In this document: piece by piece, positions 53,927-63,484 of the stretch
How the letters are laid out: each line of letters starts with the position of its first letter
How positions within the stretch are numbered: the stretch's first letter is position 1
NCBI GenBank assembly: GCA_026003335.1
Contig: BPHB01000003.1
Coordinates: forward strand, 1 to 64,000
Origin: Chitinophagales bacterium
GTDB lineage: Bacteria; Bacteroidota; Bacteroidia; Chitinophagales; CAIOSU01
Length of the DNA stretch: 64,000 nucleotides
Reading direction: 5' to 3'
The notes under the pieces: generated by a model
What the model saw: only the letters and a program-made list of their open reading frames with translations
Databases searched by the model: none
What the model was told of the DNA's origin: nothing
Position numbers and translations under genes: made by a program

Positions 53927-54985
53927 TTACCGCTTTACATGATGATGGCCATAGACGAGGGCAGCAAGCCGGCCATTGGAGCCGTAGAGTTTCATCACAA
54001 CCAGCAGTTCATCCCTGGTGGAGAGAGGTTGCTGCATTACCACGCGACAACGTCCTTCTGGAGCCTGTTGGGCTATCTGAATCAGATTAAAGGAAAGATT
54101 TTTCGCATGCGATAAATCAGATAATGCAGGCAGCATGAGCCGTATGCATTTCTGAAGAATAGCTTCGGCATTCCAGGGGGAAGGTCTGATGTATTGCATC
54201 AGAGGCTCCTTGGGGCTGTAAGAAAGCAATGGTGCTATATGAAAAACATTTTCCGTATCTACTCCGCGAAAGCCTACTTTCTCAAAAATCTTCTGCACTA
54301 TGGTGTTTTCATTTCTTGCTCCAAATAAAAAGTGCTTAAGTCCGTGTTGCAGGCAATACAATTTTATAAAGCGGAGCATATCATAGAAATATCCGCTTTG
54401 CTGATATTTTTTACAAATACCCCCAATGTGTGACTCCAGATTGCCGCTGACCTTGTTGAGGGCAAAAAAACCCACATATTCCCCGATTTCCTTGTCACGA
54501 ATGAATAAAATACAGTTGTTCGGGAAGTGCCTGAAATGATTGAACTTGCGGTAGAACTGAAACACGCATTCTATTTCTTTCTGCCTGGTAACGAGGCGTG
54601 TCAGCAGGGGTGAGCGGTAATAACCAATGGGATAGGCACCCCATGTATCCGTGAGCATGTGCTTCAACAGCCGGTCCTGGGTGCCGTCATAGGTTTCGTA
54701 TTCCAGATGCTTGTGCAGATATTCTCCCGGAGGAGGCGAATCAATAAGCGTTTTGTATCTGCGTATGCTCCCCGAAAAGGCGTAGGGCAAACCCATACGA
54801 CTTAGTTTCAGGGGAGCCATTTCATCAGTGGCAGACACCCGCAGCCGGCAAATGTCATATTCCTCCTGGAGAATTTGTTTGAATAATGTTTTCTCATCAA
54901 AGACGGTAGTGTTGCAGCGTCCGACTTTCATTTTCAGCACGCGGCTTTCTATTTCCGAGCATTCAAGTTGTGTTTCTGAGTGCAT
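53927..54985 (-). CDS. GNAT-family N-acetyltransferase (sugar-amine type, WecD-like)
   Basis: The 352-residue protein contains the segment LTDTWGAYPIGYYRSPLLTR near residue 112 and a GNAT core around VGFFALNKVSGNLESHIGG and FGARNENTIVQKIFEKVGF, the acetyl-CoA site and the last core strand/helix. WecD-like enzymes acetylate amino sugars used in surface polysaccharides or glycolipids. The large C-terminal segment after residue 270 is not part of the standard GNAT fold and I do not recognise it. The gene is 15 bp downstream of a GT2 gene on the same strand, so both may act on the same glycan. The start is the ATG at 54985. Confidence 0.72.
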   Translation of the reverse strand: MHSETQLECSEIESRVLKMKVGRCNTTVFDEKTLFKQILQEEYDICRLRVSATDEMAPLKLSRMGLPYAFSGSIRRYKTLIDSPPPGEYLHKHLEYETYDGTQDRLLKHMLTDTWGAYPIGYYRSPLLTRLVTRQKEIECVFQFYRKFNHFRHFPNNCILFIRDKEIGEYVGFFALNKVSGNLESHIGGICKKYQQSGYFYDMLRFIKLYCLQHGLKHFLFGARNENTIVQKIFEKVGFRGVDTENVFHIAPLLSYSPKEPLMQYIRPSPWNAEAILQKCIRLMLPALSDLSHAKNLSFNLIQIAQQAPEGRCRVVMQQPLSTRDELLVVMKLYGSNGRLAALVYGHHHVKR

Positions 54986-55000
54986 AGTGTAGCGAAAAAT

Positions 55001-55948
55001 TCAGACAGAACTTCCGTCATTAAGTCCGGATGTTTTGTCAATTACCCGGTAGGGTTCGGTACGGGTCAGTTTTCCATATATTCCCCAAACAAAGATTAAA
55101 ATTAGAATCAGCAAAATTGTTTGCATAGCTGCATGAAAAATCAGTGTACTCTTCCACGACAGAACGATAGTCAGCACCGAGAAGACCGCAATAAAAAAGA
55201 AAAACGCCAAGATGCTCTTGCCAGGAAAGGGATAATACTCCGGAGTGTAGCGCAGGAATATCCACAGCTTTTTCCGGAGCGGATGATTGGATGAACCATG
55301 ATATCGCGGATTGAAAGGCACCGGGGCATAGCCTACCAGCCTCGCGTCAAGAGTTTGTTTGATAAAAGCTTCAAAATGCAGTTTCGGCTCAAACGTTTCT
55401 CCGTGGAAAACCACCGTTCGCCTGAATATTTTGAAACTATCTGTAGGGTATTTGTGCCACAGGAAATTCACCGCCTTCTGGCTGAGGCGCGCTAACCGCG
55501 GGTAGCGGCTTTTCAGATGATACTTATCGGGAGCCATCCCGAAAATCAAATAAAAAGGTTCCGATGTGATTTTCCGGTACAGAATTTCAATTCCCGAGGG
55601 ATCATGCTCCAGGTCATCATCTATGGTTACTATGTATTGTCCGGTCGCATGTGCCATACCTGCCAGTGCGGCCATCCATTGTCCCGCATTTTTACCGAGC
55701 CTGATGCCATGCACCCGTGGATTTTGAGATGCCAGCTCCCGGATGGTTACCCAGGTGTTATCGGGGCTGCAGTCGTCCACGAAAATGATTTCATAGCTGA
55801 GCCCCACAAGCTTTTCCAATATATGCCGGAGGCGATTGAGCAACTCCGGCAACACCGGGGCACTTTTAAATGCCGGAACAATGACGGATAGGGTAGCGGG
55901 TTGCCTGCCGGTTGTCACGGTGAGCAAAGTATTTGTTTCTTTTCGCAA
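55001..55948 (-). CDS. GT2 family glycosyltransferase (dolichol-phosphate mannosyltransferase/ArnC type)
   Basis: The 315-residue protein has the GT2 core: SVIVPAFKSAPVLPELLNR, EIIFVDDCSPDNTW and YIVTIDDDLEHDP with the DDD/DxD metal site. Two C-terminal membrane helices (about 240-295) follow, as in ArnC/GtrB and DPM1-like enzymes that load a sugar onto a lipid phosphate. It would make a polyprenyl- or undecaprenyl-phosphate sugar donor for the polytopic transferases nearby. No ATG exists at the start; it is probably TTG at 55948 or GTG at 55918, so the N-terminus is uncertain. Confidence 0.85.
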   Translation of the reverse strand: MRKETNTLLTVTTGRQPATLSVIVPAFKSAPVLPELLNRLRHILEKLVGLSYEIIFVDDCSPDNTWVTIRELASQNPRVHGIRLGKNAGQWMAALAGMAHATGQYIVTIDDDLEHDPSGIEILYRKITSEPFYLIFGMAPDKYHLKSRYPRLARLSQKAVNFLWHKYPTDSFKIFRRTVVFHGETFEPKLHFEAFIKQTLDARLVGYAPVPFNPRYHGSSNHPLRKKLWIFLRYTPEYYPFPGKSILAFFFFIAVFSVLTIVLSWKSTLIFHAAMQTILLILILIFVWGIYGKLTRTEPYRVIDKTSGLNDGSSV

Positions 55949-56032
55949 AGAAAGATACTGGTTTATGATTTTTCTGTGGTTGTAAATTCTGCAAGGTGAT
56001 ATTGCTTTCTCCGCTTTAATTTTAGTTAAGGT

Positions 56033-56992
56033 ATGAAGTCAGCAATACACCAGTGGACAGAGGTATGGTCAGGTCGGGATGCTGTCAGGGAGCTGGCGAA
56101 GCTGTCTCCGCTGCGCAGTATGGCGGCCATAGCGCTGGAATGGGCGCTCTTGACCGGAGCCATTGCGCTGCATCGCCAGTTTCCGCATCCTGTTGTCTAT
56201 GCATTTGCCTTTGTTCTTATAGGCACCCGCATGTATGCACTCTACAGCCTGATGCACGATGGCATGCATTATCTGCTGCTGAAAAACAAGTTTTTCAATG
56301 ATCTTTGCACGCGCTTGTTTCTGGCGTGGCCTCTTTTCCTGTCATTGAGCCGCACGCGGGAGGCTCACCTTCGTCATCACCTACATCTTAAAACTGCCGA
56401 TGATCCGGAAATGGCACATCTGCAATACGATGAATTTAAATTTCCGAAAACGCGCAGGCAATGGCTCGCTATCTGGATGATGGATCTGACAGGAATAAAT
56501 TTCCTGCGCTATTTTATTGCTAAGAAGATACGTGCAGCACGCAAAGTCTTATCCGGCCGGAGTGTGCCGGGCATTATGCCCAAGCCCGTTAGCTATCATC
56601 AGGCGCTGAAGCTGGTGTATTACACAGTACTGGCCGCTGTGCTTATGTGGACGAATACGTTCATGGCTTTTGTCTTGTACTGGCTGCTCCCTTACATGAC
56701 CCTTTATCAGTTGCTCAATCGTATCAGGCTGAGTACGGAGCATTTTCACATTGCTTCCGAAGAGGTCTATCAGACCCGAACGGTGAAAAGCGGCTGGATT
56801 GAAAGAGCACTGATTTTCCCCCATAACATAAATTATCATGCTGAGCATCATCTTTTCCCTTATGTGCCTTTTTATCGGTTGCCGGCATTGCACCGTCTGT
56901 TGCAACAGCATTCAGCCGTAAGCAGGCGCATATATGTTACCGGAGGAATCAAAGGACTTTTGCAGGACCTTAATGTATCAGCTAAAAAATAG
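56033..56992 (+). CDS. Membrane fatty acid desaturase
   Basis: The 319-residue protein has the three histidine boxes of the membrane desaturase family: HDGMH (75-79), HLRHH (112-116) and NYHAEHH (267-273), with membrane helices between them. They bind a diiron site that introduces a double bond or hydroxyl group into an acyl chain. The exact position of attack is not predictable. It begins at the ATG at 56033 and ends 2 bp before the next gene (PhyH-like), so the two are coupled. It diverges from the GT2 gene. Confidence 0.88.
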   Translation: MKSAIHQWTEVWSGRDAVRELAKLSPLRSMAAIALEWALLTGAIALHRQFPHPVVYAFAFVLIGTRMYALYSLMHDGMHYLLLKNKFFNDLCTRLFLAWPLFLSLSRTREAHLRHHLHLKTADDPEMAHLQYDEFKFPKTRRQWLAIWMMDLTGINFLRYFIAKKIRAARKVLSGRSVPGIMPKPVSYHQALKLVYYTVLAAVLMWTNTFMAFVLYWLLPYMTLYQLLNRIRLSTEHFHIASEEVYQTRTVKSGWIERALIFPHNINYHAEHHLFPYVPFYRLPALHRLLQQHSAVSRRIYVTGGIKGLLQDLNVSAKK

Positions 56993-56994
56993 CT

Positions 56995-57783
56995 ATGGAT
57001 AAACACGGGTTTTTAACTCAGATTCAGCAGCAGGGCTATTATATCAGTCCCAGGCTTTTCAGCGACAGTTTTATCAACCGCCTGAAAGCCGAACTGGAAC
57101 GGGCTATTGCTGCGGAGGCTGCTTTTCATAAAACAACCCGTTACCGTGAATATGGTATGCTACTGGCCTGCCCTCTCTATGGTGGTGCATTTCTGGAGTT
57201 GTTGCATTACGATTCCCTCATAGAGCCCTTCAACTGGGCGCTGGGGGAAACGTGTATCATTTACGTGTACACTTCTTCCAGCATGCCCCCCAAAGGCACC
57301 AATTACTCCTCCCGCCTGCATGTAGACCGTCCCATGTTTATCCCGGGCTATCTGGAGTCGCTGGCCTGCCTGATACCTCTGGATGATTTCACCGAAGAGA
57401 ATGGAGCTACCTATTTTTTGCCGGGTTCTCATCTTACGGCTAATCCACCTGATGAAGAGTACTTCTATAAAAATGCCACTCGCCTGGTGACGGAAAGGGG
57501 TACGGTTTTTTATTTCAACCCACGGCTGTGGCATGCGGGTGGTTATAATCATACCCATCAATGGCGGCATGCAGTGGGCATGGCTATGGTGCGCCCCTAT
57601 CTGAAGCAACGCATAGATTTGCCGCGGGCCATGAAAGGAATGGACTTAAGCCATGTGCCTGATAAGGTGCTGCAGAAACTGGGTTTTTTTGCCCAGCCTC
57701 CCGCATCGCTGGAAGAATATTATGCCCCTCCGGATCAACGACCCTATCGCCAGCCTTCCGAGTGGGAGACCAACCTGCCTTAA
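56995..57783 (+). CDS. Phytanoyl-CoA dioxygenase-like Fe(II)/2-oxoglutarate enzyme
   Basis: The 262-residue protein carries the iron facial triad: His109 and Asp111 in LHVDRP and a distal His180 in LWHAGGYNH, with Arg197 or a nearby Arg possibly binding 2-oxoglutarate. PhyH-like enzymes hydroxylate acyl chains, amino acids or lipids. The start is the ATG at 56995, 2 bp after the desaturase stop, so both probably act on the same lipid. It is convergent, 5 bp apart, with the second desaturase gene. Confidence 0.83.
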   Translation: MDKHGFLTQIQQQGYYISPRLFSDSFINRLKAELERAIAAEAAFHKTTRYREYGMLLACPLYGGAFLELLHYDSLIEPFNWALGETCIIYVYTSSSMPPKGTNYSSRLHVDRPMFIPGYLESLACLIPLDDFTEENGATYFLPGSHLTANPPDEEYFYKNATRLVTERGTVFYFNPRLWHAGGYNHTHQWRHAVGMAMVRPYLKQRIDLPRAMKGMDLSHVPDKVLQKLGFFAQPPASLEEYYAPPDQRPYRQPSEWETNLP

Positions 57784-57788
57784 GACCG

Positions 57789-58922
57789 TCAGCGCGCCTG
57801 GTAGGAATGTTTGTTGGCTATCTCATTTACAATGTGCTTGCTGGTGTTGCCGGCCATTAGTCGCAGGTAGGCGTAATGATCATTCCACAGTTTCCGGAAT
57901 GTATTATACTCTTTGTAAGGATATCCGTATTTGCGGCACAGCTCCTTGACTATCGGAATGGCTTTGTACAGGTTTTCAACCGGAATGAATGGTATAAGAT
58001 GATGCTCAATCTGAATATGAAATCCTCCGGTGTACCACTGCCAGAAACGACTGTGGGGGCAGAAATTCGTGGTGTTGTGGCATACATAATAGCCAAAGTG
58101 ATTGGCATGTTGTGCCGGAATAGGCTCGGTAACCGACGGTACAAAATGATTAATAGCTGCACCTGCATAAATGCCAGCAAACAGGGCACACTGATACACC
58201 AGATAAAGCGCTGCGCACCATAACAACGACTGACCCAGCAAAGCAGGAAGCACGACATAATAAAATGCCGTCATCCCCAGCGATAGGAGCTGCTCTGAAT
58301 CTATGGGACGGTTATGTTTACTCCAGTAGCCGGAGCGAATGCCACCGATGGTGGTGATGATATTGGCATAAAACGGATAAAAAATCAAAGCCAGTCGGTG
58401 CTGCATTCGGTGTAGCGGCCGTACTGCAAGCAAACCGGAATACCGGATGAAGTCGGAAAAAGCAGCCACCTCATAGTCATAATGCGGGTCACCGATTTTT
58501 ATGTGATGGCTGTTGTGCTCAAAGCGAAGCGGATTTTTAATGATAAACGGCCACACCACAGGCCAGGCGAGTGTCAATAGAGCCTTGAAGAAAGCATGGC
58601 GCGGAAAGTTGCGATGAATAGCCTCATGAGCAACAAGCCCAAACAGGGATGTGCCTGCAGCCGCCTGGATGATGACCAGTACTACTGCGTATGCTTTTGG
58701 AAGGGAGCCGTAAAGAGCAGCCAGCGAGCAAGCAAAAAATGCAATCCATGTGGCCAGCCGGATATAGAAAAATGTATTTACGTACCAGGCCGGAGCCCGG
58801 TAAAGGTTGGCCTGATAGCACCGTTGCACCAGCTCTTCAAAAAAAGGTTCGTTAAAACAGTCATCCGGAATGCGCTCACTGTCCGTCAGCTCTCCTATTT
58901 TGAATCGCTGCAAATAGTGCAT
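57789..58922 (-). CDS. Fatty acid desaturase (front-end type), split from its cytochrome b5 domain
   Basis: The 377-residue protein has the boxes HEAIH (about 99-103), HNSHH (about 136-140) and QIEHH (about 304-308); the QIEHH form is typical of front-end (delta-6/delta-5-like) desaturases that carry a fused cytochrome b5. Its first residues, MHYLQRFKIGELTD, look like the closing helix and strand of a b5 domain rather than a desaturase start. The preceding b5 frame ends at a TGA that overlaps this ATG (TGATG). The gene was therefore probably one b5-desaturase fusion, now in two frames. It may still be made as two chains by termination-reinitiation. An upstream GTG (58925) is an alternative start. 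Confidence 0.85.
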   Translation of the reverse strand: MHYLQRFKIGELTDSERIPDDCFNEPFFEELVQRCYQANLYRAPAWYVNTFFYIRLATWIAFFACSLAALYGSLPKAYAVVLVIIQAAAGTSLFGLVAHEAIHRNFPRHAFFKALLTLAWPVVWPFIIKNPLRFEHNSHHIKIGDPHYDYEVAAFSDFIRYSGLLAVRPLHRMQHRLALIFYPFYANIITTIGGIRSGYWSKHNRPIDSEQLLSLGMTAFYYVVLPALLGQSLLWCAALYLVYQCALFAGIYAGAAINHFVPSVTEPIPAQHANHFGYYVCHNTTNFCPHSRFWQWYTGGFHIQIEHHLIPFIPVENLYKAIPIVKELCRKYGYPYKEYNTFRKLWNDHYAYLRLMAGNTSKHIVNEIANKHSYQAR

Positions 58923-59116
58923 CACGCCGCATGGGTGCCGTGTTTGGCAGTGAAGTAGCTGGTGGCGTCTTCACCTGCGCGCGAGTCTATGACCTCCCAG
59001 CCTCCCGGATGTCGCGCAATGAACTCTGTCAAATCATACACGCTGTTGCGAATGATTACCCAACAGTCATGGGGCTGGTTGTGTTGCAGAACCTCTGCTC
59101 TGGAATACTTTCTCAT
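58922..59116 (-). CDS. Cytochrome b5-type heme-binding domain (truncated)
   Basis: From the ATG at 59116 this encodes 64 residues with the b5 heme motif HPGG (His36) and the second heme ligand His59 in FTAKHG, preceded by AGEDATSYF. The protein ends five residues after His59. A complete b5 domain would need about 15 more residues, which appear to be encoded at the start of the desaturase frame. It would donate electrons to the desaturase. An upstream ATG in the same frame (59173) gives an unlikely hydrophobic leader. Confidence 0.8.
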   Translation of the reverse strand: MRKYSRAEVLQHNQPHDCWVIIRNSVYDLTEFIARHPGGWEVIDSRAGEDATSYFTAKHGTHAA

Positions 59117-59217: not shown

Positions 59218-59272
59218 AAGGGATGATGATTTTTTGTCCGGCTGCTGCTTACGGCCTGAAACCGAAATAGGG

Positions 59273-60943
59273 ATGACTGTTAACGTGCTGAAACGTTTTT
59301 CCAACGGCAAACAGCTCTACCTATGGGTTTTTCTGAGCCTGGCAGCTCTATGCTTTCTCGTTTACGGGGAGGCGTTGCATTATGGTTTTGTGAGCATGGA
59401 TGATGAATATTTTATTCTGAACAATCCGGACGTACAACGCGTCAATGCCGAATCCTTGCGCGCCATTTTTACCTCCTTCGGGCGCGACTATCATTATGTG
59501 CCTCTATTCTATCTGTATTTTGCTGTGGTAAACCATTTTTGGGGCCCCGACCCTTTTTATTTTCATCTTTTTTCCCTGCTATTTCATATCGCTAATGCCT
59601 TTTTGGTTTTTTACCTGTTAAGCATGCTGAGTGGTAAAAAATATATGGCGCTGTTTGCGGCTTTTCTGTTTGCCGTGCATCCCCTTCAGGTGGAGGCTGT
59701 ATGCTGGGTTGCAGCGGTGAAAACGCCCATATCTGCGAGTTTCTTTCTTTTAGGCGCTGCAGCCTATTATCATCATCGTATTCGCTATGATGAGGGTCGG
59801 GTTGCGCTGTTGAATATTTTTTCTGTATTATGCTTTGTGTTTTTTATTTGTGCTATGCTGGTCAAAACCACTGCCGTAACACTGCCGCTGTTGCTGCTGG
59901 CCATGGATTATGTGATGGCTCCGGTGCCATTCAGGAATGTGGGCGCTTTTCTGAAGAAGTACGTGCCAGGCAAACTTTTTTTCCTACCGGCTATTCTGGT
60001 GTTGTTTGTCGTAAATCAGGCGGCTGCCGCGGAAGCCCCTTTTACACTCAGCATTCCCTACAACTTCCTTGACCATGTGGCTATCATCGGCCACAATGTG
60101 TTTTTTTATATGCAAAAAAGCCTGCTTCCTATGCATTTGAGTCTGTACTATAATCCTCCTATGCAGGGAGGTCTTTTTCAAACGCTATACGGATTGAAAG
60201 CGCTCATAGGATATAGCGCTGCGGCTGTGTTTTTGTGGGGAGCATATAAAAACCGGCTGCTGTTTCTGGCAGCATCCTTTTTTTTTATACCCCTGTGTAT
60301 CATGCTTGATACCTCGCTGTTCATAAAAGACATCATCCTGCTCACGGCCGACCGGTATTATTATCTCTCAGCTGCAGGTTTTTTCTTTTTGGCAGGATGG
60401 GGTATGGATAAGATGGCGCATGCTTTAAAAAAAACAACCACTATGAGGGTATTCGGTCTGGCGGGCGCGGTTTCCCTGTATGCCTATTGCGCACACGAGC
60501 AGATAAGGGTCTGGAAGGATTCGCTTGCACTGATGGAAAATACCGTACGACATGAACCCAATCCCGAATTCCACATCCGGCTGGGGCGTGAATATCTTAT
60601 CCGCGGATATCACGACAAGGCTTACGAAAATTTTCAGGTGGGTTTCAGCCGGATGGATGCCAATGTGCGCAAGCGGGTGCACTACACCATGGGTCTTACT
60701 CCCGGCCGCATCGGACTCAACTACGGGCGTAAGGACATGCATCAGTGGGCTCAGCGCTACTTTGAGATGGAAGTAAAAATGCATCCTGATTCGGCAATCT
60801 GGTGGGCCAACCTGGGACAGGCTTACATCCAGCTGGGCGACACCGTTTCAGCCGACTCCTGTTTCCGGGAAGCTGTTAGAAAAGGATTTCATCCGGCTGA
60901 AGCTCTGCCTCACACATCACCTCCGATACATGCGCCTGAATAA
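59273..60943 (+). CDS. Polytopic sugar-transferase-like membrane protein with C-terminal TPR
   Basis: The protein (556 residues from the ATG at 59273) has about 11 membrane helices, starting LYLWVFLSLAALCFLVYGEA. An acidic motif in the first outer loop, SMDDEYFI, is where PMT-type and related GT-C transferases have their catalytic residues. The C-terminal quarter (about 440-545) is made of TPR helices (RLGREYLIRGYHDKAYENF, GQAYIQLGDTVSADSCF). This is the TMTC/PMT-like layout that transfers sugar from a polyprenyl-phosphate donor. The next gene starts before this stop (14-bp overlap), so the two are coupled. A decayed partial copy lies at 62838-63484. Confidence 0.75.
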   Translation: MTVNVLKRFSNGKQLYLWVFLSLAALCFLVYGEALHYGFVSMDDEYFILNNPDVQRVNAESLRAIFTSFGRDYHYVPLFYLYFAVVNHFWGPDPFYFHLFSLLFHIANAFLVFYLLSMLSGKKYMALFAAFLFAVHPLQVEAVCWVAAVKTPISASFFLLGAAAYYHHRIRYDEGRVALLNIFSVLCFVFFICAMLVKTTAVTLPLLLLAMDYVMAPVPFRNVGAFLKKYVPGKLFFLPAILVLFVVNQAAAAEAPFTLSIPYNFLDHVAIIGHNVFFYMQKSLLPMHLSLYYNPPMQGGLFQTLYGLKALIGYSAAAVFLWGAYKNRLLFLAASFFFIPLCIMLDTSLFIKDIILLTADRYYYLSAAGFFFLAGWGMDKMAHALKKTTTMRVFGLAGAVSLYAYCAHEQIRVWKDSLALMENTVRHEPNPEFHIRLGREYLIRGYHDKAYENFQVGFSRMDANVRKRVHYTMGLTPGRIGLNYGRKDMHQWAQRYFEMEVKMHPDSAIWWANLGQAYIQLGDTVSADSCFREAVRKGFHPAEALPHTSPPIHAPE

Positions 60944-62837: not shown

Positions 62838-63484
62838 CGTATAGTTGGCTGCTTTTTCCGGCTGCACCGCATTTTTAATCTTCTGTGCCGCATGCTGAAT
62901 ATGGATATGTTCATAAAAGATGTTAGCACCGTACTATCCGACTGCTATTTTTATATACACCTCAACGGTTTGATTTTGTATGACAGTTGGTGTGCCGGAT
63001 GGAGTAAAGTAATGGAATTGAAAACATTTGCCAAGCTGCCGCGAACGGATGGTCTTTTATAAAGGTTTTTTTATTTTGCGCTTTTGTCAGATGCACAGAT
63101 CTGTTTGTGGAGAAAATTGCTGATGTTGTTTGAAAACACGTGCATGTGCAGTAAAACTCTATCCTCATGTTTCAATTATTTAGGTTATGCGTATGAATAA
63201 CCTGAGAATAGCACCACAAGGCTTACGAAAATTTTCAGGAGGGATTCAGCCGGATGGATGCCGATGTGCGTAAGAACTTGCATCAGCGGCCTCAGCGCTA
63301 CTTTAAGATGGAAGTAAAAATGCATCCTGATTCGGCAATCTGGTGGGCCAACCAGGAACAGGCTTTCATCCAGCCGGGCGACACTGTTTCAGCAGACTCC
63401 TGTTTCCGGGAAGCTGTTAGAAAAGGATTTCCTCCGGCTGAAGCTCCGCCTCACACATCACCTCTGATACATGCGCCTGAATAA
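62838..63484 (+). pseudogene. Decayed copy of the TPR sugar-transferase gene (59273-60943)
   Basis: The region 62838-63060 matches the sequence near 60250-60450 of the intact gene with many changes: the shared core FIKD is followed by VSTVLSD in place of IILLTAD, and ends in a stop. From 63210 the match to 60610-60943 is close, but about 63 bp are deleted (after 63265) and several frames are broken. The two blocks meet in a stretch (63063-63200) without recognisable homology. The last part retains LGDTVSADSCF-like TPR sequence and HTSP-IHAPE. No start or complete frame remains. Confidence 0.7.

Follow-up and report, generated by a model that had tools for sequence, protein, structure and literature searches.

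Genes at the Locus

The window, by which we mean the entire 64,000-nucleotide stretch of Chitinophagales DNA analyzed here (contig BPHB01000003.1), contains two abutting open reading frames on the same strand. The upstream frame codes for a cytochrome b5 domain that lacks its end, and the downstream frame codes for a membrane-bound desaturase (Table 1). The b5 frame starts at the ATG at 59116 and terminates at the TGA at 58924–58922. It matches the Pfam family Cyt-b5 (PF00173; 7.5e-21, 74.4 bits) over profile positions 2–59 of 74, with the match ending at position 59 or 60, and the last 14–15 positions of the profile are absent from this frame. Both heme-ligand histidines are kept. After the second of them, His 59, the frame holds only the residues GTHAA before the stop, which confirms the preliminary description, made from the sequence alone, of a frame that stops five residues past this ligand.

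The desaturase frame comprises 378 residues if translation starts from the GTG at 58925, or 377 residues from the ATG at 58922, and reaches its stop at 57789. It begins with (V)MHYLQRFKIGELTD, matches the family FA_desaturase (PF00487; 5.2e-18, 66 bits) and contains all three desaturase histidine boxes intact (HEAIH, HNSHH, and QIEHH). A search of NCBIfam gave no match for either the b5 piece or the desaturase piece. The desaturase frame runs one nucleotide behind the b5 frame, and the TGATG overlap lies at the coordinates given for it earlier.

Table 1. Features of the b5-desaturase locus, its neighbors, and the fused genes used for comparison
Feature	Position	Strand	Remarks
Truncated cytochrome b5 domain ORF	58922–59116	minus	64 aa; heme ligands H36 (HPGG) and H59
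Junction GTGATG	58920–58925	minus	b5 stop TGA; frames overlap by 4 nt from the desaturase GTG, by 1 nt from its ATG
C-terminal end of b5 domain, MHYLQRFKIGEL, in the desaturase frame	58887–58922	minus	From alignment to fused relatives
Membrane fatty-acid-desaturase-type ORF	57789–58925	minus	PF00487; 46–55% to three relatives
PhyH-type oxygenase, convergent neighbor	56995–57783	plus	Conserved with G071
Second FA_desaturase-family protein, distantly GntB-like	56033–56992	plus	Conserved with G071
Uncharacterized 352-aa protein, acetyltransferase-like by eye	53927–54985	minus	Conserved with G071 and G037
Fused relative in G105	L037:4001–5350		MAG ACE_NR_BACT5, Chitinophagales or Bacteroidetes
Fused relative in G037	L039:3983–5326		MAG ACE_NR_BACT7, Chitinophagales or Bacteroidetes
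Fused relative in G071	L038:2–1180		MAG HKST-UBA57, Chitinophagales or Bacteroidetes

The missing part of the b5 domain can be located in the second frame. The segment MHYLQRFKIGEL at the N-terminus of the desaturase ORF aligns with the YQIGVL segment of one of the fused relatives, P0003. An alignment of P0003 with the solved cytochrome b5 structure 2ibj extends through query residue 88, beyond YQIGVL. Since MHYLQRFKIGEL aligns to a segment within this 2ibj-aligned region, the break interrupts the b5 domain itself and is not at the boundary of the two domains. The b5 piece covers profile positions 2–59/60 compared with 2–73 of 74 in the two full-length fused relatives, where the Cyt-b5 match ends at the residues aligned with FKIGEL. 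The earlier suggestion that the desaturase frame opens with the lost b5 tail is therefore borne out by the alignment. A structure model of P0003 is of low confidence, with a mean pLDDT of 64.4 and values of about 40 in the b5 region.

Fused Relatives

With the desaturase as the query, a search of 198 genomes from the same family and order returned three close relatives, in G071 (55% identity), G105 (46%), and G037 (49%), with all remaining matches at E values of 2.7e-22 or weaker. When P0003, a fused protein, served as the query against a second sample from the order (396 genomes), the same three relatives were recovered, and they appeared once more in a contig scan with an alignment as the query; the contig scan with a single protein as the query found no relatives. 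In a class-wide sample of 395 genomes the only match was the window's own genome, and the phages and viral contigs that were searched for b5-desaturase relatives yielded none.

In all three close relatives, the only ones in the genomes searched, the junction is read in one frame. The genes of G105 and G037 are single continuous frames of 450 and 447 residues, with b5 parts that are 52–54% identical to the b5 ORF described here. The contig of G071 ends inside the b5 domain, and its frame is unbroken from TTYFLAKHG via the linker into the desaturase, so that this third case speaks for the junction from TTYF on only. The desaturases of the three fused genes are orthologous to the one in the window; unlike here, their frame is continuous through the junction. 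The b5 domain and the desaturase form one polypeptide in the fused relatives P0003 and P0004, whereas in the window a TGA stands between the two frames. Homologues encoded as two genes were not found among the three close relatives. Two strong, abutting domain matches on the same strand and one nucleotide out of phase, taken together with three relatives in one frame, argue that the split is not a product of chance.

The length of the linker allows a count of what is missing. Measured from HG to the aromatic-K/Q-I-G motif, the linker is 12 residues long in G105 and 11 residues long in both G037 and G071. In the window, four residues in the b5 frame, six residues in the desaturase frame (counted from the ATG), and one codon that is one nucleotide short add up to 11. 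A deletion of one nucleotide in a fusion gene, one of the three origins put forward in the preliminary description, fits this comparison.

We also inspected more distant loci with crude patterns. At 26 distant desaturase loci (L007–L032) a b5 ORF was not seen by an HPGG pattern; two HPGG frames in L031 proved spurious. Among 29 b5 loci (L115–L143) scanned with a histidine pattern in the fetched stretches, a desaturase-like frame occurred in four, and all four were fused.

Origin of the Split

On the basis of these comparisons we think it probable that a fused b5-desaturase gene recently lost a single nucleotide, and that this loss most likely occurred truly in the cell. The explanation is most likely an ordinary one and not a new mechanism. 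The ancestral state would be a single gene for an N-terminal cytochrome b5 joined to a membrane di-iron desaturase of the predicted front-end type. Comparison with the relatives places the lost nucleotide downstream of the codon for the second heme-ligand histidine but before the b5 domain is complete, and the loss would be recent relative to the divergence from these relatives and most likely real. The resulting b5 chain would be devoid of the last helix and strand and would probably be poorly stable. A desaturase chain, if made, would depend on ribosomes that terminate at the TGA and reinitiate at the overlapping GTG or ATG. Such a chain might take electrons from the genome's other, free-standing Cyt-b5, an 84-aa frame outside the window (G000:C2:990637–990846) that is conceivable as an alternative electron donor in trans. 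Of the 396 genomes of the order, 51 contain members of the Cyt-b5 family, mostly as open frames of 76–120 residues.

To what extent the gene has changed since the split was estimated by a relative-rate comparison. With G105 as the outgroup, 38 residues are changed only here and 25 only in G071, or 33 only in G071 with G037 as the outgroup; at positions where both outgroups agree, 19 unique changes fall here and 16 in G071. These are few changes with little power, and they suggest no clear acceleration in the split gene relative to G071. The absence of acceleration, together with the intact ligands, would fit a recent event and would fit two functional chains equally well, as an old split selected as two chains would keep both pieces intact as well.

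A different reading is that the cell contains an intact fused gene and that the nucleotide is missing only in the record, owing to an error of consensus or assembly. The three relatives in one frame, the loss of exactly one nucleotide with the rest of the gene intact, and the fact that relaxed constraint is not seen in the split gene are all consistent with such an error. Yet the junction contains no homopolymer of at least four nucleotides, and no other split gene was found in this genome. When 864 kb of the genome were searched by tblastn with ORFs of relatives, a first run covered 62 places and a wider run 96 merged places over 99 kb, and both returned the b5-desaturase as the sole split, detected by two fused relatives as queries. 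The reverse comparison gave no splits in 64 places of G001. A single split in 96 places and the lack of a homopolymer indicate that the genome is not error-rich, and favor a real loss over a read error. We regard the error as unlikely, and a true recent mutation appears more likely from this sequence comparison.

The two pieces could also represent a coupled two-gene form that is translated by termination and reinitiation, as had been proposed from the TGATG overlap. Overlaps of 4 and 1 nt are standard coupling arrangements, and both types are described as termination-reinitiation sites in PMC6728339, where Bacteroidetes seemingly make no Shine–Dalgarno use at such overlaps. Overlaps of these types are found in 38 of 368 adjacent ORF pairs in this genome, three of them by TGATG (ORF pairs counted without a gene finder), and all ligand residues are kept in both pieces. 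On the other hand, none of the relatives found is split and the b5 domain is cut within the domain instead of at its border. Start-codon overlap is moreover common by chance. For 364 ORFs of at least 300 residues from 864 kb of the genome we inspected the stops in the frame opened by the loss of one nucleotide: 3,016 of these 10,613 +1-frame stops (28.4%) overlap an in-frame start as GTGA, ATGA, TTGA, or TGATG, and 458 (4.3%) do so as TGATG. At this rate, the neat overlap is a common byproduct of random loss and weak evidence for designed coupling. The locus resembles known reinitiation-coupled pairs (ATGA/TGATG) in its stop/start overlap of 4 or 1 nt and differs from them in that it divides a single ancestral protein into halves, with the boundary inside a domain.

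We consider a coupled two-gene form quite unlikely. What survives of the proposal is that reinitiation may follow from the split; a two-gene arrangement in its own right finds no counterpart among the relatives, and the overlap type is frequent by chance. Because overlapping ORFs are usual in this genome, reinitiation is plausible here without being an adaptation, and it is the likely route by which any desaturase chain is still made.

Still less probable is a natural split b5, in which coupled reinitiation would yield one chain with the heme-binding part and another with the helix and strand that close the b5 fold, and the N-terminus of the desaturase would complete the b5 domain and thereby recruit the electron donor. 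A functional split b5 is possible, and if the split were both real and functional, it would be a simple natural experiment on the ability of a fused b5 to act in trans.

Finally, programmed −1 frameshifting to join both frames into a fused protein, also considered in the preliminary description, is very improbable: the −1 frame, which encodes the desaturase, is open for about 15 codons 5′ of the b5 stop, and −1 reading at the b5 end would yield an 11-residue linker, but the b5 ORF contains no X XXY YYZ slippery heptamer in any of its registers, the RNA fold of 86 nt from the junction is unremarkable (z −0.89; 41 of 200 shuffled sequences reach the same stability), and the one-frame relatives require no shift.

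Bacterial b5-Desaturase Fusions

The fused bacterial family is more notable than the split. Like the proteins described here, the eukaryotic front-end desaturases (delta-4/5/6/8 fatty acid and sphingolipid desaturases) carry a b5 domain with HPGG before PF00487 and a third histidine box of the form QxEHH. This third box is a hallmark of b5-fused front-end desaturases, and the first box of the eukaryotic enzymes has the form HDxxH. The system in the window differs in that it is bacterial, is encoded in two frames, and contains HEAIH as the first box, where PMC3423564 gives HDASH as an example of the eukaryotic form. For the two biggest clusters of these desaturases, a 2016 survey reported b5 fusions from eukaryotes only, save for one cyanobacterial protein (PMC5037126). 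A search of open-license PMC papers by titles and the starts of abstracts found no literature on b5-desaturase fusions in Bacteroidetes.

A second, distant fused b5-desaturase was identified as an open frame of 465 residues in G745 and G682, which belong to another family (L119:400–1794 and L120). This fusion is 24% identical to P0003. N-terminal fusions of b5 and desaturase, as predicted from domain matches, are thus present in two different groups of Chitinophagales, and they add bacterial members to an architecture that the 2016 survey (PMC5037126) describes as eukaryotic with one cyanobacterial exception. The locus also calls for caution in annotation, as a gene caller will list a short b5 protein plus a separate desaturase in place of the single fused enzyme typical of the family.

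Gene Neighborhood

Four genes of the window, namely those at 53927, 56033, and 56995 and the desaturase gene, match one 3.7-kb contig of G071, the closest of the three relatives, in the same order, with identities of 51, 35, 50, and 55%, respectively. This block (53927–59116) is kept even though G071 belongs to a different family and the identities are 35–55%. In G037 (L035), too, the 352-aa protein is encoded close to the fused gene. The second FA_desaturase-family protein of the block gives a match below the cutoff, with 124 of 380 bits, to GntB, an L-arginine gamma-hydroxylase. The protein of the block may hydroxylate an amino acid or another small molecule, rather than a lipid.

Elsewhere in the window, a short ORF at 63254–63484 nearly repeats the C-terminus of the ORF at 59234–60943 (about 60700–60943; RYFKMEVKMHPDSAIWWANQ...HTSPLIHAPE), and this short ORF is a putative partial duplicate of that gene end.
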